From NCBI GenBank assembly GCA_035771165.1, contig JAWNZC010000265.1, positions 2,816,001-2,880,000 on the forward strand: a stretch of 64,000 nucleotides of DNA. The letters run 5' to 3'. Within the stretch, counting starts at the first letter, position 1. Each line of letters starts with the position of its first letter. This DNA is from Paragorgia papillata (lineage: Eukaryota; Cnidaria; Anthozoa; Scleralcyonacea; Coralliidae). The position numbers were made by a program, and so were the translations under genes. The notes below the pieces were generated by a model, which saw only the letters and a list, made by a program, of their open reading frames with translations, searched no databases and was not told the origin of the DNA. Positions 6,115 through 31,166 of this stretch are shown in pieces.

Positions 6115-7084
6115 ATGTCGGAATTCAGAACAAAAGCGCTTGTGAACAACTTGAAACTGCCTTTCTCTCCAATGAAATTTTGCGATAGTGGACGAGATTG
6201 TTACAAAAAAGAAGTTACGAAGGAATCGAAGGAATTAATGACTTATATTTGTGCACTCTTGAACAGTGGTGGTGGAATTCTAACTTTAGATTTCGAAAGA
6301 ATGTGTCCTCGTGGAAAAGTTAATCGCTGTGTGAAAATGATTACAGGTTTGGTGCATAGCATGACATCAACAACTTCTACAGTGTTTGATTTTACAGTGA
6401 CGGGATCAGCCGATAAAATTATTATGAGTGTAAAACCAAGTTGTCGTTTTGTTATGTTGAAGTCTAATTTGTACTTGCGTGATGAATGCGAAGTTATGTC
6501 AGTGCCTCCTGCTGAACCTGTTGAATACATCATGAAAATCATACAAGGCAAGACTGGCCACATTAATACACCAATTGGATCCCACTGCACAAATTTCATT
6601 CAACGCCAAGACGTAGGATTTGGCGAGTCTAAAACTGTTCAACTGAAATTGTTCACAGCAGAGAAAGGCAACTTGGCCAACCGCATTGTTGGAAAGAACT
6701 TCCGTTGTTGTGTTTCTGCATTTGCAAATCTTTCTGGTGGACATATTTATTATGGTGTTAATGAAGATGGAATCGTTACTGCAGAAAAAATTTCCAAAGA
6801 AGAGAAAGAAGAAATTGTTCTGAGCGTTAAAAATGCGGTAAGCACGGTGGTGTGGCCGGACCACATTGGTGGGCCAAAGAGAGGAACACACTGGGAAATT
6901 TTCTGGGAGCCTGTTAAGAACAGTGAGGGCGATGTGATTCCATCTCTCTTTGTGATCGTTATCTTCATCGCCCAGTGTCCAGGTGGTGTGTTTACTGAAG
7001 CACCAGAAAGTTACCACATGGTGAATGGCCAAGTAACGAAGATGAGTTTATCTGAATGGTTGTCGTATCTCCAGCCTACTACAG
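6115..7084 (+). CDS. Schlafen-like N-terminal module, 5' coding exon
   Basis: Encodes 323 residues plus one base. The ATG at 6115 is the first in frame; the GTG before it is unlikely as a eukaryotic start. Two lobes typical of the Schlafen core (paired AlbA_2-type folds) are visible: ALLNSGGG at residues 47-54, then FGESKTVQLKLF at 169-180 and SAFANLSGGHIYYGV at 201-215. Family knowledge: vertebrate SLFN cores bind tRNA and some cleave it using E-x4-E plus a later Asp. Here the second acidic position is Q176 and the GVDD-type Asp appears as N216, so cleavage may be lost while RNA binding remains. The exon ends ACAG|GTAAGA (donor at 7085), phase 1, so the protein continues downstream. The next phase-compatible exon is 17615-17672. 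A standalone short Schlafen with a lost last exon is the alternative. Confidence 0.8.
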
Positions 7085-7436
7085 GTAAGATGAGAATAAC
7101 AAAGGATTACATAAACGACAAGAATATGAAAGAGCATGCACAAAATTATAGGAGCGCGACCAGGATTACACATAATCAACAAATTGACAAACCTTATCTA
7201 GACAGAATTTATATTTCTACACAGTGGCGTGGTGGCAGGGGGGGGCTGGGGGGGGGGGGGAAGGCCCCCCCAGCTGGGGTTTCAGAAGGGGCGCCAAAAC
7301 TAGCAAGGGTGCCAAAACTTAACAAAATAAACCTATTTCTTTGTATACATGTAGCTAGGTCTTCAATGGGGGATATAAAGATCTGTAATCGTTTGTGTTT
7401 TCTATGAAGTTTTATAATCTTCAGAATTCTGTAAAA

Positions 7437-7530
7437 TCTCACTCTAAAATGCAGGAAATGGCATATCAGAGACTTTAGATTTCAAAATGTTTCGGGGGAG
7501 CATGCCCCTGGACCCTAGAGGTTTGGCACT
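7437..7530 (+). repeat. Interspersed repeat, CATGCCCC family copy 1
   Basis: Matches 52700-52800 in inverted orientation: AAAATGCAGGAAATGG, then AGAGACTTTAGATTTC, then a GGGGGAGCATGCCCC block. Diverged copy; the flanking G-rich tract and the GGCGTGG sequence upstream may belong to the same repeat. Confidence 0.65.
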
Positions 7531-8439
7531 ACTTCGCCGCTTGCATTGGCGTGGTCTTTGAGAGAACCCGTTGTTTGTTGTAATATATATTGCTACTTCA
7601 GTTATTTTAAAACAAAAAATGTGATCATTTATCAAATACAGTAATGTCTTTTTAATGACCGTTTAATTTGTAAAATAACCCCATTGGTGTCATATTGCAA
7701 TCAAATCATGTGATATATCTCTGTGGAAACAAACTTTATATGCATGACTTTCTTCATAAAATTGATTGGAGGTTTTCATATATGGTAATTTTTTAAAGAA
7801 TTTATGTGCTATTTTCGCCAATTGTGTAACGCGGGGACCCAGGCATTAATGCACCTGAGTAACGGTATTATGCTTAATGATGTGTTCCGTTACTGCGTAA
7901 CTGAGAGTATAAGTAAGAGTAGCCTAAAAACAACAAGTGTACTTTCTTTTCTCCCCTCCCCGCCCCCTCCGTCTCCCTCTTGGGTTGAGTTGCCTTGGTT
8001 ATTCTGATGACCTTAACAGGCGTGAATATTACGGCCGGACATCGGACAATGTCCGGCGTAAATTCGTCTTATAACGGGCATCTTGAAGCTGTTGCCGCAT
8101 ACATAATGTCCGGCAGAAAAGTGGTCTTGTCCGGCTAATTTTCTCTGTTGCTGGACATTGTGTCCAGCGAACTCCAAAAAATTATATTCAGGCCCGCTTA
8201 AGAATGATGGAAAAGAAATACATGGGTGGAAAATAATGCTCAAATTTTGACAGCGTTAGTGGAAACGAATTTATTTATCAAGTTGCCCGAGGATGGGGTC
8301 GCTGTTTCCCAATTTGACTTATTTTGTAATAGGAATGGGACGAGTTGCCCGCAATGGGACGAGATGCCCGCAAAGGCAATTGGATCCACGAGGATCGGAG
8401 AGAGGACTCTATGTTTGATTTTTGATAGTTAGTTTATAG

Positions 8440-8605
8440 TTAAAGGGGATATTACATGGTGGCGAGAAGATATGGATTTTATGTTCGAGTGGCAAGGACA
8501 ATATCTCACGAGTGAGCGTAGCGAACGATTGAGATTTTGTTCTTGCTACGAGAACATAAAATTCGTATCTTTGAGCAACCGTGTAATGTTCTATTTATTA
8601 TATGG
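8440..8605. repeat. Inverted-repeat (MITE-like) element
   Basis: Left arm GATATTACATGGTGGCGAGA ... GATTTTATGTTCGAG pairs with right arm ACGAGAACATAAAATTCGTA ... GTGTAATGTTC around the centre CGAGTGAGCGTAGCGAACG. AT-rich sequence to 8900 with a GTTACATGCC motif may be a longer relative; no TSD was identified. Confidence 0.65.
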
Positions 8606-9092
8606 ATAATGAAATTGTGCGTGGAAGTGATGTTGATGTTGAGTTTAATGCAAAAACTACACCGCTTTACCTAAAACTTTTAGAAAATACAAATGAAAAG
8701 TACAACAGCCTATTCGAATACGTCATTTTACGTAAAAAACTGAAGTAAGAGAAGTTACTGGCTCAAATTTACTTGCATGGCTCGAAACTTACGGCAAAAG
8801 GCGTAAATTTTGACGATATGTCACTCGCGAGCGTTACATGCCAGAAATACGCCACTCGGTTCCCGGATGTAGTGAAATATAGATTCTACGAGTGTTTTAG
8901 TTGCTAGTAAAATACTCTTCTCCATATAATAAAATAAGTTGTGCAAATAAATGAAGGTTAAATGCTAATTTCTCTTTGACTACTACAATTGGTGGAGGAT
9001 GCAAAACTTCAGAACAAAATTCACCTGGATTTAGCCGCAGTCCTTGGCACCGCCTCGCAGAACACTCGATCGAAAAGGACATGCTGTAAATC

Positions 9093-9589
9093 ATGGCTAC
9101 AGTCGCTGAACTACCTGGTCTTGTTCAAGGCCTTGCAGACGTTGTGAAAACTCAGTTGTCAAACCAGAATCAAGCCCACGAAGCAAATCGGCAGCACATC
9201 GAAGCACTGACTAAAACCGCGAACTCAGCAAGTTCAAGCAATAGCGACACACTCAAGTTACCTCAGGACTGTTTTCTTGACCAGCTTACTACATTATTAA
9301 ACTCTTCTGGAGTTCCTCCGAAACATTGGACAACTTATCTTAAACAACAAGTGCAGCAAGATGTTCGTGCTTATGACTCGGTTGTGTTTGCCGAACAAGA
9401 ATGTAAACATGAACTTGGACAGGATCCTGCTAATGTCACTATACTGCACAGTATGAAAAGTATTTTGACCTCGTCAAAGATTCCTTGATCAAGAAGCGTG
9501 GAAAGCCTAAAGACGAACGCAAACGTGAACTGCTTCAAGACTACTACAACCTCGACAAGGTAAAACCGAACCGCACATCGATTTCGTGA
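9093..9589 (+). pseudogene. Gag region of decayed Gypsy retrotransposon A
   Basis: ATG at 9093 opens a frame of 131 codons (glutamine-rich, helical N-terminus beginning MATVAELPGLVQGL). A frame change near 9470 leads into a lysine/arginine-rich part that continues to the insertion at 9590. It is followed in order by later gag, RT, RNase H and integrase pieces on the same strand, which is what identifies it. Remnant; no 5' LTR was recognised upstream. Confidence 0.6.
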
Positions 9590-9597
9590 GATCCAAC

Positions 9598-10300
9598 CAC
9601 AGGGAGCCCATCTTGGCAGCGCGTGGGCACCCTGTGGCGGACTCGAAACACGCGCGGGGGACTGTGGCAGGGGATTTAAAAAAAAAGAAAAACGGTTACC
9701 GGAAGCGGGAAAAAAGGCGGAAAAAAGGAAAAAACGGGGGGAAAAGGGGGGAGGGAGAGGAAAAAATATAAGGGATGAAACACCAAACGTTCAACGTGGA
9801 ATGTGTTCCGCAAGTAGCCAGGACATCTCGTATCGTCGGGAGCCACCGTTAGAATACTGAAACCGACTGAAACTCAGAGTCAGATGAATGTGCAATAAAT
9901 CAATAATCCTGAGACTTCCCGCTTTATCCAAAAAGCTTATCGTAGGATTTCGTAGCTATCCGAAGTGTCAACGATTATGTAGTGTTCTAGCTAGTTGCGG
10001 AACACATCTCCCGAAAATACGATAGTAATTTAGCTGCAAAATCACGGCTAAAAGGTGAGATTTTGCATCAATTTGAGTTATATTTTGATAAATGAATCAT
10101 TATCACAACTACTTCGCTCAATTGTCTTACAATTTTAATACCTATAGGCACTTAAAACGATGTTCAATCGTGTTTCATCCCTTTATTATTTTCCTAAACA
10201 CACCCATTGAAACACACCACGATCGAGTGTGCCACAGTCCCCCGCGCGTCTTTCGAGTGCGCCACAGGGTGCCCACGCACTGCCAAGATGGGCTCCCTGT
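9598..10300. mobile_element. hAT-like non-autonomous element inserted in gag
   Basis: 703 bp with long terminal inverted repeats beginning CACAGGGAGCCCATCTTGGC, the right end being its near-perfect complement ending GGGCTCCCTGT. The 8 bases GATCCAAC occur immediately before (9590-9597) and after (10301-10308). An 8-bp duplication is typical of hAT elements. The gag reading frame is continuous across the site if the insert and one duplication are ignored. The interior is purine-rich and AT-rich, without a transposase. Confidence 0.88.
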
Positions 10301-10810
10301 GATCCAACATGAACTTGAGAAATGTATTCCAGGTATTCACTACACCGCAACTAACGACGGTATCGAACTGAGACATGTATTTTTGATAAAATTACGTCCT
10401 GAAATTGGGAAAGCCATGATAAGACGAGATGCTAAATATTCCTCTTTGGCTGAAATAGTATAGAAGCTGCAAACCGATATGAACATAGTTCCCCTTCATT
10501 ATCTGCCCTATCGTCTGACTATGTTGATCCATTCAGAGAAGATAAATCTATATGTTGCTGGGCAACGCTGTTACAAATGTAATGAACTTTGACACATCAA
10601 AAAGGATTGCCCTAGCCTGTCCAATCGCCAAAACCAATCAAAGCTACCTCCGTCTACGAAGAATATTTCTGCTGAAGTGTGCCTTCAATGGAACCAGCGC
10701 CACAGTCCAAGGTGCTTGCTTGATAACAACAGTTGCAAGTTCAACCACCAACGTGTTTGCCTTATGTGCAAAAAGAAAGGATGTACCTGTAAACAACCTC
10801 GTACCCAGGG
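10301..10810 (+). pseudogene. Gag C-terminal part with degenerate zinc knuckle, Gypsy A
   Basis: The frame resumes after the hAT-like insert (HELEKCIPGIHYTATNDG) and runs to a stop at about 10461. Cys/His-rich codons follow in shifting frames (CYKC near 10560, CLMCKKKGC near 10770), matching the zinc-knuckle region expected between capsid and polymerase. Multiple stops and shifts show decay. Confidence 0.55.
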
Positions 10811-10819
10811 CCATTTGTA

Positions 10820-11210
10820 GGCCCACTCATTAAACAAGAGATTCAGAAGATGATTGAACAACATTTTGGAACCTTCTACATCTCCTTGGGGGGCGCCTTG
10901 TCTTCTAGTGAAGAAGAAAACCGAACACGGTCTACAAGTCACTCCTCGTCTTGTCTGGGACTATTGTAGGAACTGTTAGCTGTGATTTGGGCTTGGGAAA
11001 CATTTCATCGTTATCTTTGGGGACGAACATTTTTAGTGCAAACTGAGCACGCAAATCTCCAGTGGTTACAGGCTGTTTATAGTCCACAGAAAAGTCGCCT
11101 CGCTCGCTTGGCAATGCGCCTGGCTGAATATGACTTCGACCTACAACACCGGCCTGCATGGAAAAGAGAACTCCAATGCCGACGCTCTTTCCAGATGTCC
11201 TCAGACTTGT
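10820..11210 (+). pseudogene. RT start fused to RNase H remnant, Gypsy A
   Basis: About 30 codons resembling the entry to a Gypsy reverse transcriptase (IKQEIQKMIEQH, then a VKKKT-like end) are followed almost directly by RNase H sequence (ELLAVIWAWETFHRYLWGR ... TEHANLQWLQ). Most of the RT domain, including the catalytic YxDD region, is deleted. Confidence 0.7.
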
Positions 11211-11600
11211 AGTGATACATGTACCGTCGCAGAAACTGTCAGCTTAAATGATGTCGAACCGCTGATGGACGTCAAGACCTTGGTCGTAGTCGAATCCGCA
11301 CTTGGTCTAGATAATGAATCATCCACTCTTGACACTGCTCCGAACGCCAGTTTGGAGAATGACGAAGAAAACGAGTTTGCCACAGATCACCTTATCGCCC
11401 TAAAACCATCGCTCTTCGAATTTCGAGATGAGCAGCGTTCGTGTCCTCAGTTACGACCCATCATTGAAAAATCTCTCTGGTGCAACGTTGGAACAATCTC
11501 AGGATGACCACTCTAAATTCACAGGATACGAACTTAACCCCAATGATGGTTGTCTTTATTACCATGACTACTGATATCAACGACAGTCCACCGTTGGTTG
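11130..11600 (+). pseudogene. RNase H-integrase linker, Gypsy A
   Basis: Opens with NADALSRCP, the conserved junction after Gypsy RNase H, followed by an acidic, low-similarity linker of about 115 codons. It shifts frame near 11480 and reaches the target duplication GTTGTACC at 11597-11604, where a small DNA element interrupts it. The sense frame continues at 16046. Confidence 0.7.
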
Positions 11601-11698
11601 TACCCATTGAACTCTAAGTTGTGCCCTTCACACCTTCTGTTGACGTGCAATGGCTACCCCCAGCGGCCGGAAGTTTGACTTCACCCAATCATAGGGGC

Positions 11699-11827
11699 TG
11701 TAATAACTCACGTTTATTAGACGACCACTTGTTGAATACAAGCCTATTTATATATCCTAACTACTGATTAACATATAAAGTAATCAACTACTAATTTACA
11801 TATAGTCTCACGCCACCGCATGTGACA
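11699..11827 (-). repeat. 3' LTR of Gypsy B
   Basis: 129 bp, TG...CA ended on the element's strand (TGTCACATGCGG to GAGTTATTACA). Identical to the other LTR except for one base in the AACATATAAAGTAATC/AACATATAAAATAATC segment. Confidence 0.97.
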
Positions 11828-11849
11828 TCTCTCTTTTTTTCTTTTCTTT
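11828..11849 (-). promoter_or_regulatory. Polypurine tract of Gypsy B
   Basis: On the element's strand an uninterrupted run of about 22 purines directly abuts the 3' LTR. This is the expected plus-strand primer for reverse transcription. Confidence 0.9.
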
Positions 11850-11925
11850 AAAACTAAATCCTAATTAAACTGTAAATACTGTAAGATTGTTATCAAATGT
11901 AAATAATGTAAGATTGTCATCAGTT

Positions 11926-14358
11926 CTAACCCATAGTCTCAATTAAACGTGACGGCGCGTGACGAATCCGCGTACTTCTTCTAAGAGGCTGATTTGTCTG
12001 CACCACCGGTCGACTCGTTTGTACTTCTTCTGCTATAACCTCAGGTGGTGGTGGTTGAGGCGAGCGATACTCTACACTATCAGGCTCCATGGGTGGGCTT
12101 ATAACAATCGGTTCTTTCGTTGGCAAAAGATGAATGCGATTTCGACGTAACTGCGTTCCACCTGGAGTGGCAATGACATAAGAACGAGGAGCTTGATGTT
12201 GATCAATGACCACTGCAGGATTCCATTCACGTCCATGTCGGATTCTCACTGACTCGTTTGGACAAAGAGGCGGTAATAACTTCGTACCACGGTCGTAATG
12301 TGCTTTTTGACGTTGCTGGCGTAACCGCAATCTCTGACAAACGTCATTGACTGGCTGAGGCTTAGGCTTAAGGAGATGCTTCGGAGTTGGCAATTTGGTT
12401 CTCAGCTTCCGGCTCATCAATAGTTCTGCGGGAGATTGTTCCATACCACTGATAGGTGAATTGCGAAACTCTAGTAAAGCGAGAAATGCATCTTGTTTGG
12501 AATCATCAGCTTTCTTTAACAGTCGTTTTATGGTCTGCACGTTTCTCTCGACGAGTCCATTTGACCGCGGGTAATGTGGGCTGGATGTTACCACATCCAC
12601 CTCCCATTCTCTAGCAAATTCCTTTACTCTAAGGCTGTTAAATGGCATATTATCAGCAATAATCTTCTCTGGAATACCATGACGCGCAAACATGTCCTTC
12701 ATTGCTAAAATGACAGCTTCACTATTCTTGTGGTTAAGTCGAGCTACTTCGGGGTACTTCGAAAAATAATCAACGACTAGCAAATAATCTCTTCCTTTGT
12801 AGTAAAAAATGTCCGCCGCAACGGTTGCCCACGGTCTTCCTGGGACTTCTTGTGGTATTAAAGGCTCTCTTTGATTACTTCTCTGGTGTTTTAAACAAGT
12901 GCTGCATGCTGAAACCATCTCACTAATCGAAGTATTTATACCAGGCCAGAATACTGCATTCCTAGCTCGTGCTTTGCATTTTCCCATTCCCAAATGGGCT
13001 GCATGTATGCGATTCAAAATTTCTGGTCGAAGAATATGAGGAACGATTATACGATCACCTTTGAACATCAGGCCATCATAACAGCTTATTTCATCCCTAT
13101 AGGTCCAATACGATCTAGTTTCTATAGGCGTTTCAGCTATCGTCTGTGGCCAACCATCCATAACAACTCTATGCAGCTCCTGAAGCTCTGGATCTTTCTT
13201 GGTTTCTTCTGACAGTTTGACAAACATAGTCTCCGAGACCTGGCCTGATTCCAAAATATTTTCTTCAAACTCATCCTGTTGTTCGCTTGTCTGCACAGGT
13301 AGGACTGCTCTAGAAAGTGCATCGGCAATGAAAAGTTGGCTACCAGGTGTATATTTCACTTTGACTGCATAAGGTTTAACTCGAAGTATCATTTTCTGCA
13401 ATCGAAGAGGTGCTTGATGGATAGATTTCTTTAATATTGCTTCTAACGGTTTATGGTCAGATTCAACAGTCACTTCTCTTTGCCCATACAAATACTGATG
13501 GAAATGTTCACAACCAAAAACTATTGCCAACATTTCCTTCTCAATTTGTGAATAGTTTTGTTGGCACTTCGTCAACGACTTTGAAGCATAAGCCACTGGA
13601 CGATCATTCTGTAGAATCACTGCACCCATACCTTTCGAGCTAGCATCGACAGACAAACACACAGGTTCTTCCTGATTGAAAAACTTCAAGACTGGTGCAT
13701 CAGTAATTGCTGTTTTCAAGTGTGTAAAGGCTTGTTCTTGTGCTTGATCCCAGGACCATTCAACATCTTTCTCGAGCAACTGCCGTAATGGAGCACTTAT
13801 CTGCGACATATTTGGAATGAACTTGGACACGTAAGTGACAATGCCCAAAAATCTTTTCACTTCTTCGCGATTAGTAGGACAAGGCATTTCCCTGATTGCT
13901 TTCACTTTCTGAGGATCTGGTTTCAGTCCATCTGAACTCAACACATGACCCACATAACTCACTTCGGAGACCCGAAACCGGCACTTTTCTTCATTCAACT
14001 TGAGATTTTTCTCACGACAACGTTTCAAAACCGATCGAAGTCTCTCGTCATGCTGCTCAACGTTCTCTCCCCACACTACCAGGTCATCCACGATGACTTC
14101 AACCCCTTCTATGTCTTGAAACATGTTGGACATAACACTCTGGAAAACCTCGGGGGCTGAAGCTATTCCAAATGGTAAACGTTTATAACTATACCTGCCA
14201 AAAGGAGTATTGAAGGTGGCTAACTTGCTGCTTTCTTTGGCTAATTTAACCTGCCAAAAACCATGGTTGGCATCAAGAACACTGAAAATCTTTGCATTAG
14301 GCATTCTACTGATGACATCTTCCACTGTCTGCATTGGAAACTGTTTCACGCATGACAA
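11926..14358 (-). CDS. Gypsy B polymerase: RT palm, RNase H, integrase
   Basis: About 810 codons. RT palm: FSVLDANHGFWQVKL near residue 25 and VIVDDLVVWG with the catalytic DD at 91-92. RNase H: SVDASSKGMGAV and QIEKEMLAIVFGCEHF between about 225 and 290. Integrase: zinc-binding H-x3-H ... CSTC (about 457-493), then the core with Asp in AADIFYY, Asp in IADNMPFNS and Glu in NGLVERNVQ, giving an intact D,D,E triad. The C-terminus is basic and proline-rich. The natural polymerase start lies upstream in another frame: at about 14345 the frame shifts by one base after DLNQVVMRE, so this ORF begins inside the RT. Confidence 0.95.
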   Translation of the reverse strand: MSCVKQFPMQTVEDVISRMPNAKIFSVLDANHGFWQVKLAKESSKLATFNTPFGRYSYKRLPFGIASAPEVFQSVMSNMFQDIEGVEVIVDDLVVWGENVEQHDERLRSVLKRCREKNLKLNEEKCRFRVSEVSYVGHVLSSDGLKPDPQKVKAIREMPCPTNREEVKRFLGIVTYVSKFIPNMSQISAPLRQLLEKDVEWSWDQAQEQAFTHLKTAITDAPVLKFFNQEEPVCLSVDASSKGMGAVILQNDRPVAYASKSLTKCQQNYSQIEKEMLAIVFGCEHFHQYLYGQREVTVESDHKPLEAILKKSIHQAPLRLQKMILRVKPYAVKVKYTPGSQLFIADALSRAVLPVQTSEQQDEFEENILESGQVSETMFVKLSEETKKDPELQELHRVVMDGWPQTIAETPIETRSYWTYRDEISCYDGLMFKGDRIIVPHILRPEILNRIHAAHLGMGKCKARARNAVFWPGINTSISEMVSACSTCLKHQRSNQREPLIPQEVPGRPWATVAADIFYYKGRDYLLVVDYFSKYPEVARLNHKNSEAVILAMKDMFARHGIPEKIIADNMPFNSLRVKEFAREWEVDVVTSSPHYPRSNGLVERNVQTIKRLLKKADDSKQDAFLALLEFRNSPISGMEQSPAELLMSRKLRTKLPTPKHLLKPKPQPVNDVCQRLRLRQQRQKAHYDRGTKLLPPLCPNESVRIRHGREWNPAVVIDQHQAPRSYVIATPGGTQLRRNRIHLLPTKEPIVISPPMEPDSVEYRSPQPPPPEVIAEEVQTSRPVVQTNQPLRRSTRIRHAPSRLIETMG

Positions 14359-14737
14359 CTTGATTTAAGTCACTAGGATCCATGCATACTCTAATCTTAT
14401 TGTTTTTCTTTCTGGCAATCACAAGGCTGTGTACCCACGCAGTTGGTTCTTTTGTTTTTTCAATAACACCCAACTTCTCCATTCGTCGTAACTCTTCTTC
14501 AAGTGGCTTGCGCAAAGCAACCGGAACTCTGCGAGGTGGGTGGACAACAGGTTTCGCCTCGGCATTGACCTTGATTTGGTGCTGTACGCCTTTAATCTCC
14601 CCCAGACCTGCAAAGAGATCACTAAATTCTGTCTCAACCTTTGGTTGATCTACCTCGAGGCTATAAACCCGCTTAATTAAACCAAGTTCAAGACAGGATT
14701 TTAATCCGAGGATAGATGGTAAGTCTTGTTCAACCAA
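14306..14737 (-). CDS. Gypsy B RT N-terminal segment
   Basis: Carries the RT entry region: RKPLEEELRRMEKLGVIEK, then AWVHSLVIARKKNNKIRVC and MDPSDLNQVV. It runs in a different frame from both the protease before it and the RT palm after it; each change is a one-base shift. The ORF's own first codon is an internal position, not a real start. Confidence 0.88.
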   Translation of the reverse strand: MVEQDLPSILGLKSCLELGLIKRVYSLEVDQPKVETEFSDLFAGLGEIKGVQHQIKVNAEAKPVVHPPRRVPVALRKPLEEELRRMEKLGVIEKTKEPTAWVHSLVIARKKNNKIRVCMDPSDLNQVVMRETVSNADSGRCHQ

Positions 14738-15095
14738 ACGAAGTCTAACACGAAAAATTTCCCTTTATATTCGCACGCTAAACTAACCTTCCCTTTTGGG
14801 GTAATTTTCCGCCCATCATACACTTTTAATTTGCATTTACTCTTGAGTGTTTTTGTATTCCTGAGAGACAAACGATCAAACAACGACTGCGAAATAACAT
14901 TACAATCGGCACCAGAATCCAATTTGAAATTCAAATCAGTACTGGCAATCTTCAAAACAACATGCCAGTCATCCTGCGAAACGCTCTTATTACTTGAGTC
15001 TACTGAGAATGTTAGCAAATCGTGTTCGTTTTCGCTATCTTCAGATTCCCCCAATGTATCAACCGCTTTCCCCTCAGAATCACGTTTTTTTTGCC
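14701..15095 (-). CDS. Gypsy B aspartic protease region
   Basis: Retropepsin active-site motif FKLDSGADCNVIS near 14930, followed by flap-like and C-terminal strands. It is reached from gag by a +1 change at a run of eight A (element strand) around 15085-15095; upstream codons of the open frame are shadow. A canonical -1 slip at that run would enter the wrong frame, so either a +1 event or a one-base homopolymer error is needed. The frame changes again near 14715 before the RT. Confidence 0.85.
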
Positions 15096-15838
15096 CGACA
15101 CACACGCTCAAAATGCCCTGTCTTCTTACAATAGTTACACGTTTTACCAAACGCGGGACAAGACCTCGCTGTATGAAATAAACCACAAAACGCACACTTA
15201 TCTGTCTTGGAATCTGTTCTTGAACGACGTCTAATCGGGTTCTTCTCATTGTTGTTAATGCTCCGAACTTGATTTACCGACTGATCAAAATTAATCTGCT
15301 CCTGGGGACTCATCACTTTGATCTGCTCTTTCGAGACTTCGGCTGCCCTCGCCATGCTGACTGCCTTTTCAAGTGTAAGTTTCTCTTCTCTCAACAGCCT
15401 TTCTTTAACTGCTAAATCTCGTATGCTGAACACCAACTTGTCTCTCACCATGTCATCCACGACGGTATACTCACAGGATTTCACCTTGTTTTTTAATCTT
15501 GTGACGAACTGATCAACCGTTTCGGAGTCTTTCTGCGTAATCTTCCAAAACTGATATCTCTCAAAAACCACATTCTTCCTAGGATTACAGTACCTATCAA
15601 ATTGTTCGATAACTTTATCCAGTTTCTTCTCATCGCCCTCCGGAAACTGAAATGTGTTGAAAACTTCAATAGCATCCTCGCCGGCAAAGTTCAACAAAAC
15701 GGCTATCTTCACCGAATCGCCTTTGTCTTCACTACCCGAAGCAACCAAGTAAATCTGAAATTGTTGTTTGAATCTTCTCCAGTTTTCAGATATGTTTCCC
15801 TCAAAACCCAACGTACTAGGCTTATGGAAACTATCCAT
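15080..15838 (-). CDS. Gypsy B Gag with two zinc knuckles
   Basis: 252 residues starting 23 bases inside the 5' LTR. Capsid-like helical region (residues 10-150, FxKWxxT-type QFWKITQKDSETVDQFV around 95-112), then a basic stretch and two CCHC-type knuckles: CAFCGLFHTARSC (C-x2-C-x3-H-x4-C, slightly short) and CNYCKKTGHFERVC (canonical C-x2-C-x4-H-x4-C). Gag packages the RNA; the knuckles bind it. The stop follows directly after the A8 run shared with the protease frame. Confidence 0.92.
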   Translation of the reverse strand: MDSFHKPSTLGFEGNISENWRRFKQQFQIYLVASGSEDKGDSVKIAVLLNFAGEDAIEVFNTFQFPEGDEKKLDKVIEQFDRYCNPRKNVVFERYQFWKITQKDSETVDQFVTRLKNKVKSCEYTVVDDMVRDKLVFSIRDLAVKERLLREEKLTLEKAVSMARAAEVSKEQIKVMSPQEQINFDQSVNQVRSINNNEKNPIRRRSRTDSKTDKCAFCGLFHTARSCPAFGKTCNYCKKTGHFERVCRAKKT

Positions 15839-15844
15839 AGTCTA

Positions 15845-15861
15845 CCCCACACCTGACACCA
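15845..15861 (-). promoter_or_regulatory. Primer-binding site of Gypsy B
   Basis: TGGTGTCAGGTGTGGGG directly follows the 5' LTR on the element's strand. The TGGTGTCA start is common at Gypsy primer sites; I do not assign the tRNA. Confidence 0.75.
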
Positions 15862-15990
15862 TGTAATAACTCACGTTTATTAGACGACCACTTGTTGAAT
15901 ACAAGCCTATTTATATATCCTAACTACTGATTAACATATAAAATAATCAACTACTAATTTACATATAGTCTCACGCCACCGCATGTGACA
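15862..15990 (-). repeat. 5' LTR of Gypsy B with TATA box
   Basis: 129 bp. On the element's strand it contains TATATAAATAGG (about 15906-15917), the likely core promoter, and ends TTATTACA. Very short for a Gypsy LTR. Confidence 0.96.
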
Positions 15991-16034
15991 GGGGCTGTCT
16001 TATGGAGTTAGCGTTCCAGTTTACTTAGAGTTCA

Positions 16035-17014: not shown

Positions 17015-17039
17015 ATTATGACTTCTGAACCGGTTTAAG

Positions 17040-20375: not shown

Positions 20376-20655
20376 ACTATCGTTTGTTAATTGATTTTAA
20401 TTGATTAATTTGAATTACTGTGTTGTTTGTTTGCGGAACCTATATAGACTCTTTGCACATGATTTTAAAACAGTTCATCTGGAAGACAATTTCAAGGTTC
20501 CGATGTTTTTTTAACAGTGTTTAACTATGTTGCTTGTAGCTTTGCATGGCGATAATAGATATTTGATAAAACGTTTGTAGGTTTACACCTAGCCTGCGTA
20601 GCCGGCGCTGGGGTGATTGGGGAAGGGGAGCGCCTGCAGGCGTCTATTGTTATTT

Positions 20656-22305
20656 TTCGTGCCGCCCCCTAATAAAAACAGTGTATTTTTGGAAGTTGTC
20701 AATTTCAAAGTTGATAGAATATTTACTCCGTTTAAAAAACACGTATCTAGAATTAACTAAAATAGTACAGTTATGAATGAGTATGTGTATCAGTGCATTC
20801 TTGGTTCTGGAATTTGTGTGGTATATGCTTGTCAAATATTATTCTGCTGTTGCTATATGTTGGCTGGTTTACAGTTAATAGCGTTCACTGCACTGAATAT
20901 TTTAAAGTCTTTTAAATAATTAAACAATTTATGTTGAGTGGGCTACAGAAAGCTCAGACAGATTATTTTCGTAGTTATAAAACATGTGTATGTAACGACT
21001 ATGACGATCAATAATATAATCTTAACATCCCGCGACATTCTCACGCGTATCAATAATAGTTAAATTTAATAGCGAATTTTATTTTCCATTGGCAATTGGC
21101 GCTGATGGCTAATGCAGCCGGAGAAGTACGCCTGAGTAGATCCCACTGATTCGAATCAAATGCAATTGTATAAGAAATTCTAATTGATGTCTCGCTCTAG
21201 CCAGTGTCAGACAATTCAGTTTAACACTCGCCGTTTACAGTGAATCACTATAAGTGGGGCCACGTAGCCAACGAAAACCAATCACATTCAAGAACGAAAA
21301 CAAAGAAGTTCAATTTCGGCACCGCGCCAATCAGTAAACAAATGCATGGATTCCTTTCAGTGGGTACTCGTGTTACCGAATTGCGGAAAAAGTTCGTCTT
21401 AATTTGTAATATATAAGAGACCGCTGCTTGTTACTCCAACGACCGAATTCAAAATTCGATATAGAAGGTAAATCTATTTCACCTAAACGTACATGTTTGA
21501 ATGTGTGGCGCTATTTACACCACAAGTGACCGCGACAAATACAAATTTTGTTTCCTTCAGTGTGTTGCTGCTTGAAGATTTTTTACATACAACTATATAA
21601 TAAGGAAGCTGACATCTCCGACAGTCAGTTGCGAGGTCAGTTGACGGACACTAGATCAGCTTACGCATTTTTGCATAAAATTGAGCTCTAAATAGTAAAT
21701 TAAAAAATTATCACGTTTTCCATTTGAATTACCAAAATCGGAATTTTGGTCGTTGGCAACGCTTCCGAACATACTTTTAGGATTATTACTATTAGGCTAT
21801 AAATACCAAATGTAAATATAACAATCAAGATAAAAATTTCCACGGGATTCGGTGTACATAACCCAGTGGAAAATCACTAAAATTCGTTGTTTGAGCCAAT
21901 CTGTCGCATTTATGTTTGGAACACGCATTTATACTACATTAGTCTTTCAAAAGGAACGATGTGGTTTTCAATTGTTTGTATTCTACCACAGTTTACACGG
22001 AATTTTACAATATTGTTTCCAGGCATATACAGAAGCCATAAGGGTTGCAACTCTATAAATAATTATATAAAAAGCTTGGGATCCCTCCGAAAACAATAAC
22101 ACATCAACAACAAATGAACAAAATATAAATACTTTACTGTTCCAATTCATGAACTATACAGATATGTCAGTTTACAGAACATAATCGATCAGAAATTTAG
22201 CAATAAAGTCAAAGATTCGTCGATTACACAACGTATAAACGGCAACAAAAACTGTCAAATGAGAACTCAACGTACATGTTATTCGTACTATAGTCTACAG
22301 AAAAC
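20656..22305. other. Left half of the 6.3-kb element, no ORF
   Basis: No coding region recognised. Subterminal repeat 21211-21345 mirrors the region upstream of the paired-domain gene. Downstream of it lie a TATA-like ATATAAGAGA (21411-21420) and a splice-donor-like TAGAAG|GTAAAT (21468), which could make an untranslated first exon of a plus-strand transcript. Confidence 0.4.
21411..21467 (+). promoter_or_regulatory. TATA box and possible untranslated first exon
   Basis: ATATAAGAGA is followed about 30 bases later by CCAACGACCGAATTC and a consensus-like donor at 21468. By symmetry with the right end of the element this is where a promoter would be expected. Inference only. Confidence 0.3.
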
Positions 22306-23332
22306 TCAATAAGTGAGTCTTCTGTACATATTGCTTGAACTGGTTTGCTTGAAACCACTGTTCATACTTTCTTGAAACGTTACCATGTTCATCCTAAACT
22401 CTTCGACAATCATTGGTAGTCTCCAGTCTTCGGATTCATCCATAGGGACCTTATTGTTCAACGCTTTCTTTAGAGTCATCAGATCCCGATCTAGTATGAT
22501 TCGGTCAGTGCCAGCATATTTCATAGCGTTCTGTTTTTTCAGCCGAGGCCTCATTATTGCAAAAAAGCTATTGCATGCCTTTTCACGAGCAGCTTTGAAG
22601 GACAAAAATTCGTTGCTGGACTTCTCGGCCTTCTTTTCTAAGCTCTTTATTAGACGTTGAAGCTCTGTCATTGCGTTTTTCATTTCTGGATGTTTACTTC
22701 GAAGGTTACAATTACCAATACCAGGACAGATTGGGTTTTTACACTTTCCTTTGTTATGCCCTTTGTTATGGTAAGTGGCAGTTGGAGCATACCTTTGTAC
22801 GTTTTGTCGCCATTTGGTCATACTCGTCTGCTTCCTGTTCCAGTTGCGTATATTGTTGTTTAGCACTCACGATTTGTGCTTGAAGGAACCGCATGTCACT
22901 GGTAAGAGTTTCTTCTTTCTTGGCAAGGAAACCGGTTGGCATTTGACTGGAGTCGTTTGTGCGCACCAGAGTCTGAGATGAGGAAGGTGTTTGTACGAAG
23001 TAGTGGTTCTCCCTTATATGCGTGCAGGCACCCGGCGCTTCCACGACGTCCTTGTGTACTTCGGACAATATGCTTGTCGTTATGGTAGAGGTAGCCGGTC
23101 CTTGAACGGCGTCCTTTGCGGGGAGTTTCTGTATCTCCGTCAAAAGAATTTTCTTATGGGCGTACGAAAGTTTCCTGGGTGAAGGAAAGAATACGTCCAA
23201 GTCAGATCCTTCAACATACTTCAAAGACTCCTTTGTAGTGAAACCCCTTTCTTCAAAATCGTTAGCCAAGTGTCTGAAGTCTAACCCACATGAAATAGAC
23301 GAAAGCCAGCGAGAAATTTCACTGTCTTCCAT
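22306..23332 (-). CDS. SAM-like, coiled-coil, zinc-cluster protein of the element
   Basis: Reads from 23332 down to 22306 with one frame change near 22790. N-terminal ~65 residues look like a SAM-type helical bundle (SEISRWLSSISCGLDFRHLA, then DFEERGFTTKESLKYV and an AHKKILLTEIQKL end). A low-complexity linker follows, then a coiled coil (MRFLQAQIVSAKQQYTQLEQ), then a Cys/His cluster (KVCSNCHLP | HNKGHNKGKCKNPICPGIGNC), then a second helical, lysine-rich region (KNAMTELQRLIKSLEKKAEK). The frame change splits the Cys/His cluster and looks like a one-base deletion, so this copy may be broken. Divergent to the HIRAN gene, 155 bp away. Function unknown; possible scaffold or nucleic-acid-binding partner. 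Confidence 0.65.
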
Positions 23333-23487
23333 TGCGAATTTGTAAATACAATCTGGCAGAAAAAGGCGCGCCCTTTCGATTTAATTATTGACGTCATGCG
23401 GTGGCATTTAGCCAATCAGAAATTTGTATTCCCGCGACTCATGTTGTTTATTTCATATATTCATAAAAGCACTGCACAAGAGCAACA
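23333..23487. promoter_or_regulatory. Divergent promoter between SAM-like and HIRAN genes
   Basis: 155 bp between the two start codons contain TGACGTCA (a CRE-type palindrome, about 23389), GCCAATCAG (a CCAAT box, about 23411) and a TATA-like CATAAAAG (about 23461) on the HIRAN side. Placement suggests co-expression of the pair. Confidence 0.6.
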
Positions 23488-24048
23488 ATGGCCAAGATTT
23501 GTGTTGAAAATGCTGTCGTGAAAGGACACCATGCCTATTTATTTGAAACCCACATCGGGGATATTTACGACTGTTTTCCAGAGGTAAATAACGCACACGA
23601 TCCCCATGCGGTAATCGTAAAGAACGGGCGAGACGTAGTTGGACATCTTCCCATTGGTTTTGCTGATCATATTCACATTCTTTTTATGGAACTAAAAGAA
23701 AACGTAACCGTACTTTGGTAGGTTTGTGGTGTTTACATTGTTACTTAGATTCTCCGGGGATTTTTTGAAAATATTTGCGAAACTAAAATAATATATATTT
23801 TAATATAATTATACGCCAACATAATTCCTGGTTCTATGCCTTTTTATTTACGCTTTAGTGAGATCACCGGGTTTCCCACGCCAAGCCGAAGACCTTGGCC
23901 ATTTATCTGGAATAAGGGAGGTGGGGTTGTCATGCCTTGTCGATACATCTTTTTATGCGAAAAGGAACGTATAGCATCGGTGGGCCTCCGATTACATTTA
24001 TCACTGGAATTCATTCCTGAAGGCTTCATTTCTCAAGATGATGTATGA
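23488..24048 (+). CDS. HIRAN-domain protein, two exons
   Basis: Exon 1 23488-23718 (ATG in AACAATGG context) ends TTTG|GTAGGT; exon 2 starts after TACGCTTTAG at about 23859 and ends at the stop 24046-24048. The two halves join in frame, giving about 140 residues. HIRAN-type signature: a hydrophobic start (NAVVKGHHAYLFETHIGD), EVNNAHDPHAVIVKNGRDVV and GHLPIGFADHI, i.e. the N-x-HD-x-x-A-V...VGHLP pattern. Family knowledge: HIRAN domains bind DNA ends or 3'-OH termini in remodelers such as HLTF, and standalone copies are known in mobile and conflict contexts. Complete and intact here. A role in element mobility or DNA-end handling is inference. Confidence 0.7.
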
Positions 24049-24059
24049 AAAGTTGGACG

Positions 24060-24829
24060 AACTTCGCCGCACAAATGATTGGTGTTTACAAACTATTCTG
24101 CCATGTAAACATAACTATATTTCTCGTCCAAACGTAAGACACGACTCTCTTTTATAAATTATACCCTCGCCTCAATGGTGCAAAACTTCATTAGCGCCAG
24201 ATAACGACGTAAAACATATATATATATAATTACATAAAATAGATTGCCAATAATATAATTTATATTATCTCACATGTGTGATTATTCATGACTGAGTTTC
24301 CTGCCCAATATTTGTGTGGCAATGGGAATATTTTTTATATAATAATAAACAGAACAATAAACGGACGCTTCGAAACTATGAATTCCGGCTATTTCGAGCA
24401 TTGAACAGGATAGCTCACTAATCGAGGGGGTGTATCACTCCAAAAAATCTCGTACACCTTTAAAAATCGGAAATCTCAAAAAATCCGAAAAAATCTCAAA
24501 AAATCTCAGAAAATCACCAAAAATCTCAAAAAATTGTAAAAAATCCAAAAAAAAATCTCAAAAATTCCCCCAAAATCAAAAAAAAATCCCACGGGATTTT
24601 GAAAATCCAAAAAATCTCGTGCACTTTTTCTGGAGTGATACACCCCTCGTCACTAATGAGATATCGTGGTCAACATGCACTCGAGATAAATCTCGTACTT
24701 CCGTACATGTTTGTTTTAATTTATTCTCTGATACGATTGCCTTTTATATCATCTGTCAAAATGAACTTTATAGTTTATTTGTTATAAATCTATTCATTGA
24801 AAGTTGGATATAAATAAAGAATAGTAATT
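24060..24829. other. AT-rich spacer, no gene
   Basis: Contains a tract of repeated CAAAAAATCTCA-like units (24440-24620, bounded by inverted TGTATCACTCCA / TGGAGTGATACACC at 24430 and 24633), i.e. a short inverted-repeat element of about 220 bp with a degenerate AAAATC interior. Nothing else seen. Confidence 0.55.
24430..24650. repeat. Short inverted-repeat element with AAAATC-rich interior
   Basis: Ends GAGGGGGTGTATCACTCCAA and TGGAGTGATACACCCCTC are inverted; the inside is a degenerate run of AAAAATCTC units. MITE-like. Confidence 0.75.
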
Positions 24830-24951
24830 TTATTGCTCCTTATCAGACAAGCATTTAACAATTCTATTATCATGTTGGACACTTGGTTTCATTAGTTTTT
24901 CCGTTTCAATGTAGTCAATGACATCGGGCGTCAACTTATGCCTTGGGTAAG
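24830..24951 (-). pseudogene. Pax-like gene, 3' fragment after the insertion
   Basis: On the minus strand the frame after the nested element reads YPRHKLTPDVIDYIETEK then LMKPS and about 16 more codons to a stop at 24830-24832, overlapped by AATAAA. The IDYIETEKLMKPS segment resembles the start of the second (RED) helix set of paired domains. Same gene as 26086-26305. Confidence 0.6.
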
Positions 24952-26078
24952 CAAGGGAGCACGCCAGACTGACCTGTGTTTCTTCTTCTTTGACTTTGTA
25001 CGGAGTTCCTTCATTTATATTCAGCCATTTTGAATAATGCGGTATATATCATTAGCGTATCGTAGGCGCGGGTTACGGCGCCGAAGGAAACCCGAGGCCC
25101 GAGCGTTTACGAGGGCGGAGAAAGGAGGGAAGAGAAAAGGAGGGGAGTGAAACAACCGTCACGTGAAGGAGTATTGACCAATGGCGATGCGTTATTTGGG
25201 TTTTGAAATGTAGCTATGCTCGTAGCCGGTAGCCCTTGATCTGTCAACAATCAATTAGGTTGTTCGCGCGAGGTAAGTTTAACAAACGTTTATAAGTTGC
25301 CAGCAGTTACAACCCATGATCCAACCGTCCCAGCGTTTCTGCAATATTCCTCAATTCCTGTCTAGTAAACACTTTTTAATAAAACATATAAATCGCTAGC
25401 CAACAGCGAACCACTTGCAAAGACATAGTCAGAGAAAGAATATACTGTTCGAATGCTGTATTTAAATTACATCGTCTAAGTAAAGTTCAAAATTCAAAGA
25501 ACTTAAGAAACACGTCGTAAAATTGTAACATTATTTAATTTACTCACATATCAACTGAAATCCGCCTTCGATCTACTGATAGTATTAGTTTGTTTATGTA
25601 CTGCCGAAACATAGAACGTAGATGTCTCACGTTTCGAGCGATTGGAGCCAAGGCCCTTTAATATAAAGTCAAAATGTTAGACATTACGTTTCATGTTTCG
25701 GCAGTACACCAACCTTGCTATATTTCGACTTGCATTTCAACACTGCCCTCGCAGCAGGCTGCTTTTATTTCACTATTTCATTTTGGATGGATAGTGACAT
25801 CATACATGTATATCGACCATAATTAGAAATGTTCCTAGCAACGGAAATGTTCCTAGCAACGGTCAACCAGCATCATCTTACAAAATCTCTGGCGTTTCAC
25901 TCCCCTTCTATTTATCTTCCTTCCTATTTAATTTTCGTAACGCGCTCGGGTTTCCTTCGGCGCCGTAACCCGCGCCTGCGATACGCTAATGATATATACC
26001 GCATTATTCAAAATGGCTGAATATAAATGAAATAACTCCGAACAAAGAAGAAACAGGTCAGTCTGGCGTGCTCCCTTG
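24952..26078. mobile_element. 1.1-kb foldback-like element splitting the paired-domain gene
   Basis: Ends CAAGGGAGCACGCCAGACTG and its complement; inverted homology extends ~150 bp inward (to GGTTACGGCGCCGAAGGAAA on the left and its complement at about 25950). GGGTAAG is repeated on both sides (24945-24951 and 26079-26085), a 7-8-bp target duplication. The interior carries no gene; 25595-25790 is a copy of the GTTTCGAGCG repeat family. Confidence 0.8.
25595..25790. repeat. GTTTCGAGCG repeat family, copy with palindrome
   Basis: ACTGCCGAAACATAGAACGT and ACGTTTCATGTTTCGGCAGT are inverted arms around CGTTTCGAGCGATTGGAGCC. The downstream part (TTTCAACACTGCC..CGCAGCA..GCT..CTTTTATTTCACTAT) matches 44310-44350 and, inverted, 34835-34870. 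Confidence 0.65.
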
Positions 26079-26085
26079 GGGTAAG

Positions 26086-26305
26086 CTGATTTGGGAGGTG
26101 GAATGGTTGAATTTGTGCAATCGTAGTCGCGAAGAACATTCTGGACAAAGTGGCGACTTTTTCTCATTGACCGAGCAATTTGCCGTTGTGAACAATTCTC
26201 ATGATTTAAGTCCAAAACTCTTTCACGAATGAACGGTGGCAATCTTTGCCCTCTCACGTATAATCCACCGCTCTTGTTGATACCGAGGTTTGTAAATGGC
26301 AGCAT
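26086..26305 (-). pseudogene. Pax-like paired-domain gene, 5' part
   Basis: From ATG at 26305: TNLGINKSGGLYVRGQRLPP, IRERVLDLNHENCSQRQIAR and SMRKSRHFVQNVLRDYDCTN match the N-terminal (PAI) subdomain of paired domains: beta hairpin, then helix-turn-helix ending in a recognition helix. Family knowledge: Pax DNA-binding domains are related to transposase HTH regions. The open frame continues to 25928, but codons beyond 26085 belong to the inserted element. Its upstream region (26380-26520) is the subterminal repeat of the host element, which probably supplies the promoter. Confidence 0.7.
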
Positions 26306-26876
26306 GGTATATTCAAATAATTACGATTTAATTTCCCGTCGATTACTAATATTTCGTTGAAGTATATTCAAATTCCACGCTTCCTAAACTGGCATTGTTT
26401 TCTGCGTCGTGTGGATTGGCTAATGTACCGCCTATTGAAATTCTTTTATTTTCGTTCTGTAATGTGATTGGTTAGTATTGTCTGAGCGGCCCCACTTAGG
26501 TAGACGCACTGTAAGCCGAAGGGGCCACGTCTTGCGTGAAAATCTTACCGTAATTAACAGTTGGGAAACCAGCGAATAAACATTTTCCTTCGGATGCACA
26601 TGCAGCTGCCTTATGGCCACTCTCTTCTCAATCTCAGTTTATTTTGAACTCGTTTCCTTCTACTATGCAAGGCACATTTTCGCAACGCTCTTCGAACTCT
26701 TCGCCAACGTCTGCAGTGGAAATTCAAACTCTCTTTGATTGATAGGTCATTAGTGTGTCAACCAATAGATTGCGAGCGTTCGTCGGCGAACGCTATAAAA
26801 CGAAAAATAACAATGGGCGACTGCAGGCGCTCCTTTCACTGTCCGTCCCAATCCCCAGCGCCGGCTACGCAGGCTA

Positions 26877-28106: not shown

Positions 28107-28259
28107 CCTTAACAAGTGAAGATGATGTTGAAGGTGACGATGATGGTGAAAGTGAAGATGATGTTGGAAGTGACGATGATGGTGAAAGTGAAGACGATGG
28201 TGAAAGTGACGACAATGGTGAAAGTGACGAAGATATGAGCGATATCAGTAGTGACGATG
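28107..28259 (+). CDS. Protease gene, acidic exon
   Basis: Acceptor ATGTCATTGCAG|CC, donor GATG|GTAATA; phase 1 in, phase 1 out. About 50 residues of imperfect repeats of the type GESEDDVGSDDD, almost all D/E/S/G: an unstructured, strongly negative linker. The DNA is an imperfect repeat of GATGGTGAAAGTGAAGA, so length variation between individuals is expected. Confidence 0.7.
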
Positions 28260-28325: not shown

Positions 28326-28445
28326 GAAATAACTTTGATATTTTTACCTGTTTCGAGAAAGATACGAAAAGCCAAAGTGATTTGGAAGAATCTGATACAA
28401 ATAAAGGTCCTACTGTTTCAACACTAGCTTCAAAAGAAACGAAAG
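28326..28445 (+). CDS. Protease gene, internal exon 4
   Basis: The frame NNFDIFTCFEKDTKSQSDLE ends ACGAAAG|GTATGA (phase 1), joining the next exon in frame. The 5' border is less certain: the better-looking acceptor TTTTTTATGCAG at 28311 gives the wrong phase, while GCATGAAG at 28325 keeps the frame. Alternative splicing or a small error upstream would also explain this. Confidence 0.55.
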
Positions 28446-28916: not shown

Positions 28917-29013
<97 letters not shown>

Positions 29014-29014
29014 A
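28843..29014. repeat. (TGCC/TGGC)n microsatellite
   Basis: About forty tetranucleotide units, CTGCCTGG-type on the left, pure CTGG on the right. Period four keeps several frames open on both strands; none is a gene. It lies in an intron. Confidence 0.95.
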
Positions 29015-29111
29015 TTGGTCTGTTTCTGTCTATCTTTAGTAAATTATTTATCTTGCTTTTTAAAAACATTGGTGGAATTGATTCCATTTTTTTTCTTTCT
29101 ATTCTTTTAAG

Positions 29112-29190
29112 GAGATTTGTCTTGGTTTAGAACGACACTTTATGATGAGAATTTTGATTTAAAAGATAAGCACGTAGAATTCTTATCCAG
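29112..29190 (+). CDS. Protease gene, internal exon 5
   Basis: Acceptor CTATTCTTTTAAG|GA, donor TCCAG|GTAATG; phase 1 in, phase 2 out. Codes DLSWFRTTLYDENFDLKDKH plus five residues. It completes an AGG codon with the first base of the terminal exon. Confidence 0.7.
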
Positions 29191-29740
29191 GTAATGGACT
29201 TTGAGTACTTAAAATGATATCTTTGTGAAACCGACCGGTGATTTTCCAGTAAACTTCTTTTATAGTTTGACTATAAACTGGCATTACCTCACTATACGAA
29301 GGAAGATATTCGCAATTTTCGTTTGTGAAATTTCCTTCGTGTTTTAGCAGTTCTTGTTGCTTACGCTGATTGACCGGCAAAAGGGCGTGAAACGACGTGG
29401 AAATATTAAAGTTTTGAAATGACGCAAATTCAATCGAACTTAAATCAAGGACAATTTATTAAATATCTATTTAAAACATTTTCTGTGTTTCCATCCAAAG
29501 CTCCACAACTCACAAGTGTTTCAATAACTGTTTGGGGACACAGACAAAATGTTTTCTATGTCTTCTATAAAATAACCTGTTGTAAATGGGTAAAATGTGA
29601 AAGCATTGTTCCTATATTAATTCTAAAAATGGCATAAATTTTGTCGTGTTGAACACGGAATGTATCTATGTACTGTTGTATGTATGGATGCACGGAGAGA
29701 TAAAGTGGAGTATTTTGTTTTGCCTTTTTTGAAATTTTAG

Positions 29741-31166
29741 GTTAAAATGGGTACAAGCTTTTGGCATTGCAGGGCCAAACGAAGAGTGTGATACGCTGCA
29801 TTTAGTAATAACATGTAGAAGCAGTGAGGTTCCCTGTATGGCTGAACTAAAGAAACAATTTGGAAAAGAAATTGTTTTCTACGTGGAATTCGTTCCAGGA
29901 ACAGATGACGAACACTTTCAGTTTCTGGTAAATGAAAATAACCACGCCAGCGCGTCAATCCATACATCCAAGTCGGATCAAGCGAGGGACCCAATGTCTG
30001 GTGATGGAATCTATATTCATGGTGATAGTCCAAAGCGTTACGGTACTATAGGTGTATTTGCCTGCAAAGACGGTGAGGAGATAAAACATTACGCCACAAC
30101 ATGTTATCATGTTTGCTACAATGGCAGAAAGAAGCGGTTACCCAAGAATCGAGCAAGGAAGCACAGAATATTATGTCAAGATAGCGAAAATTTGTGTTCG
30201 TCTACTCGCAAATCGAAGTACTGCTATAGACTTAACAGAAAAAATAAACAAAAGGAAGGTCCGGGCGGTAACAAAGATGCGGAGAAAGACGAGAAAGAAC
30301 CAGAAGGAAAGGAGAAGAAACAAGAGCAGGAAGAGGAAGAAGAGAAGGAAGAAGAGGAAGAAGAGAAGGAAGAAGAGGAAGAAGAGAAGGAAGAAGAGGA
30401 AGAAGAGAAGGAAGAGGAAGAAGAGAAGGAAGAAGAGAAAGAGAAGGAAGAAAAAACGGGGGGCCAAATAGTAAACGGGGAGAATAATGTCGGCGAAGGG
30501 ATGGAAGTAGAGGACAAAGAAGGAAGCAAAGAAGATAAGGAGAAAGAGAAAGGAAAACAAGAAGTTGAGGATCGGAGTAAAAAGAAAAAACCCTGTAAAA
30601 CGGTAGAAATAAAAGGGGGTGTGCTGGGGAAATTTTTATGGGGAACGTTTGGCGAATTCCACGATATTTCCGTGGTGGAGATACACAATCATGTACCATG
30701 TGCCTGCAGAATCGATGATATTACTTGCAACAGATTAGCCATAAAGAGCGAAATTGACGACGAATTAGAAAAGCCGGGTGACGTGATTGTTAAAAAAACG
30801 GGTTGTGCAAGTGGAACAACAAAGGGCGTCCTTATTCAACGAGGCCATATTAGGTTGTCAGGTCGGAAGGGTCCATTCTTAAAAAATGGTTACCTAATCA
30901 AAAATTTAGCTGGATCTAAATCTTTTGCAAGGGATGGTGATTCCGGTTCCATAGTAAAACTGGTGGTGGGCGAAGAGAATCTCCCGTTTGCTTACCTTGT
31001 TTATTCATCGTTGGAAAAGGTTGGTCGAGCTAAGGACCCTGAGAAAGTATATTTTTGCTTTGATTTATCCGAAAGTTTTGAAGAGTTCACTAAATATGAA
31101 AGGAAAAAGAATCCTCATATTCTTACCAAATTATGTTTGACTTCATGCGCCAGTAGTCCAAGTTAA
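29741..31166 (+). CDS. Intracellular trypsin-fold serine protease, terminal exon
   Basis: Opens after GAAATTTTAG; phase 2 in; stop TAA at 31164. The part from 29838 (an internal ATG) is 442 codons. Numbered from there, a chymotrypsin-like triad is visible: H91 in YATTCYHVC, D276 in HDISVV and S369 in ARDGDSGS, with a GCASGTTKG strand before the serine loop. There is no signal peptide or zymogen cleavage segment, so a cytosolic enzyme is likely. Between His and Asp lies about 110 residues of charged low complexity (EEEEEEK units, 158-207; K/E-rich to 250). Family knowledge: cytosolic trypsin-like domains of this type are found at the C-termini of metazoan and bacterial conflict and cell-death proteins. 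The upstream partner of this chain is inferred to be Schlafen-like. AATAAA follows at 31259. Confidence 0.75.
30320..30460 (+). repeat. GAA/GAG-rich coding minisatellite
   Basis: About 18-base units (GAGGAAGAAGAGAAGGAA) encode the glutamate/lysine tract of the protease exon. Long minus-strand frames here (30171-30699) are only the complement of this tract. Confidence 0.85.

Follow-up and report, generated by a model that had tools for sequence, protein, structure and literature searches.

Exon chain at the locus

The locus considered here lies in positions 2816001-2880000 of contig C265 (JAWNZC010000265.1) of a 618-Mb Paragorgia papillata genome assembly; this whole stretch of 64,000 nucleotides is referred to below as the window. 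The plus strand carries a Schlafen-like exon (E1) and, downstream of it, six exons of a putative trypsin-like protease gene (E2-E7). The probability that E1-E7 form one fusion transcript, with position 7084 joined to 17615, was put at about one half.

The seven exons are listed in Table 1. Each start follows an AG or is an ATG, and the 3' ends of E1-E6 all abut GT as read in the sequence. The spliced frame comprises 985 open codons; the borders and the frame thus bear out the initial annotation, which had proposed a seven-exon chain of about 985 residues with the phase kept at every join. The 7084/17615 junction is phase-compatible, and the splice across it is predicted. Since E2+E3, E4 and E5 are each phase 1-1, the frame would also be kept in shorter spliced forms. 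The chain is weakest at two exons: E4, acidic and of low complexity, is missing from the compared paralogous copy on contig C131, and the E5 acceptor at 28325 is preceded, 14 nt earlier, by a better-looking but frame-breaking AG (read by eye).

Table 1. Positions of the exons and associated features in the window (D0, upstream module exon of the paralogous protease genes; C131, contig carrying paralogues)
Feature	Positions	Strand	Description
E1	6115..7084	+	Schlafen core, N- and C-lobe AlbA_2; 323 codons + 1 base; phase-1 donor
Proposed intron 1	7085..17614	+	Mainly dispersed repeats
60-bp piece	17458..17517	+	Matches region upstream of D0 in two paralogous loci
E2	17615..17672	+	Module 2, first half; phase 1 in, 2 out
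E3	20120..20271	+	Module 2, second half; phase 2 in, 1 out
E3-E4 intron insertion, 6.3 kb	20590..26876		9-bp flanking repeat; SAM and paired-box open reading frames on minus strand
E4	28107..28259	+	Acidic linker exon; phase 1-1
E5	28326..28445	+	Linker exon; phase 1-1; weak acceptor; in frame in C131 paralogue
E6	29112..29190	+	Module 3, first half; phase 1 in, 2 out
E7	29741..31166	+	Phase 2 in; module 3, second half, then trypsin-like domain split by poly-Glu insert; stop 31164-31166

The Schlafen core

E1 matches the Pfam family SLFN_AlbA_2 in two stretches (E = 3.2e-12; 47.5 bits against a cut-off of 25.3) and, in the PDB, a SLFN12 structure (2.6e-11) as well as structures of SLFN14, SLFN5 and SLFN11, in agreement with its earlier description as a Schlafen-like exon. 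In a 102-row alignment it deviates at only three of the 29 columns with at least 90% conservation and is, judged from this alignment, an intact two-lobed Schlafen (AlbA_2) core. With SLFN12, the nearest solved structure, it shares the two lobes, the first catalytic Glu and an N-E-D motif; it differs from the Schlafen family in having Gln at the position of SLFN13 Glu210, no tail after the core, and protease exons downstream.

The ribonuclease (RNase) site of rSLFN13 consists of three carboxylates (Glu205, Glu210 and Asp248), and replacing either Glu205 or Glu210 by alanine is reported to abolish cleavage (PMC5862951). The corresponding residues of E1 are E171, Q176 and E217, so a three-carboxylate site of the SLFN13 type is not present. 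The second position is occupied by Gln in 79 of the 102 aligned rows (E1 included) and by Glu in 18, and the Schlafens of this set may mostly be without the vertebrate nuclease site. Gln in place of a Glu that is essential in SLFN13 makes a role as sensor or tether likelier for E1 than one as RNase. RNA binding without cleavage is the better guess for this core, and the role of RNA effector, which the initial annotation had offered beside that of sensor, is doubtful.

The genome holds 36 further matches to E1 (37 in total with E1), many of them in one cluster on contig C393. In 16 of the 29 relatives retrieved as loci the core is followed by a tail in the same open frame, giving 584-721 residues. 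This long same-frame tail, typical of the relatives in this genome, is absent from E1: the relatives' Schlafen tails gave no separate match within the window at 1e-3, and the window frame after 7084 matched none of the relatives' frames (blastp, E up to 10). The core alignments of some relatives extend beyond 7084, to 7224 at most. The Schlafen homology of the window ends at the donor CAG/GTAAGA, which agrees with the consensus at 8/9 positions and is the strong phase-1 donor that had been noted there. For comparison, donor-like sites (7/9 or better) were sought within 45 nt of the core end in the 25 relatives that reach it. None has such a site in phase 1; two have one in phase 0 (L052 at +33 and L056 at +3), the frame continuing in both.

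The protease gene and its paralogues

E7 carries His, Asp and Ser in the order of trypsin-like (S1-type) proteases, with GDSG around the Ser. These residues (H123, D308 and S401; window positions 30108, 30663 and 30942) are identical in the window and in all three aligned homologues, and also in the homologue P0079 and four paralogues, so that the catalytic set reported earlier is real at the level of sequence. The trypsin fold reported with it is less secure, being indicated by motifs and weak profile matches. A structure model built from four sequences reached a predicted local distance difference test score of 37.8, too poor for fold comparison. A five-sequence profile searched against the PDB found rice NARROW LEAF 1 (NAL1; 7y77) at E = 1.9, its His and Ser lining up in order with those of the protease; an unrelated chain ranked higher, at 0.27. 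The Pfam family Nal1_C (PF25819) matched the window protease below its cut-off (E = 0.024; 14.3 bits against 26.1) and the protein P0003 at 12.8 bits. A Nal1_C search over the whole genome returned nothing, but as the controls were blank too this is uninformative, and scans with NCBIfam and PADLOC gave no informative match. The order of the residues and the motifs around His and Ser thus align weakly with NAL1, from which the window protease differs in its sub-threshold Pfam score, its poly-Glu insert and its repeated N-terminal modules. One such module occurs twice, as E2+E3 and as E6 with the beginning of E7 (blastp 6e-9), and each copy is split by an intron in phase 2. E2-E7 accordingly appear to be a trypsin-like, weakly NAL1-like protease gene.

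Five copies of E7 were found in the genome (one in the window, three on C131 and one on contig C133), together with a distant partial match on contig C6. Window positions 17518-31738 align with C131:435239-443873 across exons and introns at 81-95% identity; E2, E3, E5, E6 and E7 recur there in frame, and each of the nine splice borders compared is preserved. E2 is 71-88% identical over 17 residues at five loci, E3 has a 66% identical stretch in C131:437669-437854, and E6 is 88% identical in four paralogues, its borders being kept in the one compared. In the other three paralogues, the interval from the last D0-type exon to E6 yielded none of E2-E5. The four cluster copies on C131 and C133 carry a varying number of a module of about 65 residues and are about 94-95% mutually identical over much of their length.

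Upstream, each of these four copies carries an additional module exon, D0. In the C131 copy read closely (at about 434880-435060), D0 ends by eye in phase 1 ahead of E2. D0 was sought ahead of E2 in the window and was not found. The 60-bp piece of Table 1 is immediately followed, from 17518 on, by sequence homologous to the D0-E2 intron, and the unit that the piece matches also occurs on contigs C72, C261 and C311. The pieces 8353-8990 and 17458-17517 had been considered as a collinear 5' flank of the paralogous gene; this was weakened by their order, which differs from that in the paralogues, and further by the presence of the same repeat unit on C72, C261 and C311, where no protease copy is listed. 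With that argument weakened, loss of D0 from the window gene by deletion is no more than likely, and the other copies may instead have gained D0. The paralogues also have a separate open reading frame ahead of D0, which was examined and not considered further.

One alternative is that the loss of D0, with the repeat insertion, recently silenced E2-E7, that decay is still invisible and that E1 is an unrelated neighbour. The copies are young, divergence from the paralogues being only 2-6% in most non-coding segments, and dN/dS (ratio of nonsynonymous to synonymous divergence) over the exons is near 1 (0.72-1.25). The pattern of change weighs against it. Relative to the C131 copy, divergence is 5.5% at aligned non-coding sites and 10.5% in exons, and indels are multiples of three in 12 of 15 cases within exons against 21 of 76 outside them. 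Frame-breaking indels between the copies number about 11.5 per kb in non-coding DNA; of the 15 exon indels, three have lengths that are not multiples of three, and both frames are open. At 3% substitution, the frame would escape a stop with a probability of 0.09 even with indels left out of account, which makes neutral decay over the whole branch unlikely. Among the sites invariant in three outgroup proteins (331 columns), three changes are confined to the window and 11 are shared by all four paralogues; the window thus keeps conserved residues better than the paralogues do. With indels in threes and few changes at conserved sites, the window protease looks maintained, and fast-changing in places as conflict genes are. 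A loss late on the branch would be compatible with the indel and stop tests, and a recently silenced protease is accordingly an improbable explanation that retains some weight.

The fast change is concentrated. The C-terminal protease part diverges by 14-15% in all four comparisons, well above most non-coding segments, the exceptions being intron 5, which reaches 9-12% in three of the four, and the 97 bases before E2 (10%). In all four comparisons dN exceeds dS for both the C-terminal part and the opening part of E7; the relation is reversed, again in all four, in the middle part of E7 (60 codons), where dS is 0.30-0.49 and dN 0.15-0.19. In the one pair tested for positive selection p was 0.09. 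As dS lies above intron divergence, the changes in the fast part might instead stem from old recombination or gene conversion.

One transcript or two genes

Proposed intron 1 contains repeats at 7222-7653, 8441-8937 and about 8991-17420, the last a plus-strand element whose 5' border at 8991 was placed where the C131 match stops. The end of this element (17010-17420) recurs in at least 35 other places (among the best 40 of 954 candidates scored). Nested within it on the minus strand is a Ty3-type element (11699-15990) with very short end repeats (129 nt) that are 99% identical, so its insertion was probably recent. Without the repeats, E1 and E2 would be about 1.2 kb apart (7085-7221, 7654-8440, 8938-8990 and 17421-17614).

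Alternatively, the locus may hold two independent genes. One would be a short gene for the Schlafen core, stopping within the first repeat or shortly beyond it. The other, the protease gene E2-E7, would have either an unrecognised starting exon or a promoter lying in the same-strand repeat at 17010-17420, and its translation might begin at an internal Met in E3. The position of that dispersed repeat, ending at about 17420 and 200 bp upstream of E2, suits this arrangement, as do the readability of E1 through to a stop at 7407 and the lack of Schlafen neighbours for the other protease copies (C131 and C133 carry none of the 37 Schlafen matches). It is less easily reconciled with the sequence ahead of E2, which has no in-frame ATG just upstream and an in-frame stop at 17593, or with the near-consensus donor of E1 at the very end of the Schlafen homology. 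A scan of 7085-17614 for other exons with an ATG and a phase-1 donor gave only three candidates, of 37-53 residues with 7/9 donors, all within presumed repeats. Two separate genes were therefore judged rather unlikely, if less so than a silenced protease.

For a single transcript, the phase match alone is a one-in-three event. The case is stronger because each half is without a part typical of its relatives and the broken ends fit: the absence of the common tail from the Schlafen half and of D0 from the protease half makes a fusion more likely. Several observations weigh against the single transcript. Proposed intron 1 is 10.5 kb long and consists mainly of repeats, including a same-strand element able to end or start transcription. 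Reading past 7085 would give a 430-residue protein, a possible alternative end, and the tail is not universal, the remaining 13 of the 29 Schlafen relatives having shorter frames, several of which are pieces or broken. In L056 the phase-0 site is a GTAAGT only 3 nt from the place of the E1 donor. D0 could have been lost so recently that decay is not yet visible, and the fusion itself is deduced from DNA sequence and a predicted splice.

No relative uniting the two halves was found in the genome or in the protein sets searched. A search of 5.8 billion proteins scored only lengths of 0.55-1.75 times the 782 residues of the query, and only the 7993 candidates with the most words in common with it. 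Within these lengths it returned 37 Schlafen-bearing matches, including proteins of the octocorals Dendronephthya and Paramuricea and of three bivalves, none of which matches the protease half. The lack of a fused protein in the scored subset also counts against the single transcript, if only slightly, as the length window and the candidate limit mean that it says little. The literature search likewise found no fusion of Schlafen and trypsin-like protease for corals, cnidarians or invertebrates, papers on Schlafens in corals or cnidarians being judged by title; a SAMD9L paper that came up for Schlafen, AlbA_2 and trypsin was discarded, 'trypsin' in the available part of its text referring to cell detachment. 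The statement that no protein of this architecture had been described therefore holds for the sets searched.

If the two halves are joined, the chimeric gene is probably young. A Schlafen gene without the usual C-terminal tail, ending in a phase-1 donor, would have come to lie upstream of a same-strand protease gene without D0, the module that in a paralogue ends in phase 1 before E2. Splicing over the repeat-filled intron would then yield a protein of about 985 residues in which the Schlafen core is followed by a repeat module, an acidic linker, a second repeat module and the trypsin-like protease. The core is probably inactive as an RNase; it would bind RNA, for instance tRNA or foreign RNA, and recruit or activate the protease, which would cleave cytosolic host or viral proteins. 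That such a protein works, with a non-cleaving RNA-sensing core controlling a fast-evolving trypsin-like protease in an architecture recently born by exon capture between two multigene families, is put forward tentatively.

The proposed fusion, if real, would be comparable to FAM111A and SAMD9L in purpose rather than descent. To our knowledge, the partner domains of SAMD9 and SAMD9L include no protease. SAMD9 and SAMD9L are reported to contain a Schlafen-like active site inside a larger antiviral protein (PMC11221667), as is proposed for the window gene. FAM111A restricts viruses, and in FAM111A and FAM111B a trypsin-like protease follows two N-terminal modules (PMC9798293). The window protease has the same order; the window protein differs in being joined to a Schlafen part. 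Tandem ubiquitin-like (UBL) domains and a Trypsin_2 domain mark the FAM111 proteases; no Pfam match to UBL or Trypsin_2 was found at E up to 1, and no FAM111 chain is among the two weak PDB profile matches, the presence of FAM111 in the searched set being unchecked.

A working fusion would be an innate-immune architecture absent from the sets searched. If transcribed, the gene would represent a new domain architecture, combining an RNA-binding antiviral-type core with a protease, and an example of defence proteins arising from the joined halves of two gene families. If untranscribed, the locus would still document rapid change in a NAL1-like protease family of a coral-like animal, as well as widespread Gln at a Schlafen nuclease-site position in this set.

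Other features of the window are minor. The insertion at 20590-26876 has short inverted ends, and its minus-strand open reading frames match SAM_2 (7e-4, just below the cut-off) and the paired-box family (1.7e-7); by these features it resembles a DNA transposon carrying SAM and PAX-like reading frames. Long simple-sequence tracts lie at 28868-29013, in the intron before E6, and at 42176-43121. Reverse-transcriptase-like open reading frames occur on both strands at 55952-61455 and by eye resemble those of long interspersed nuclear elements.

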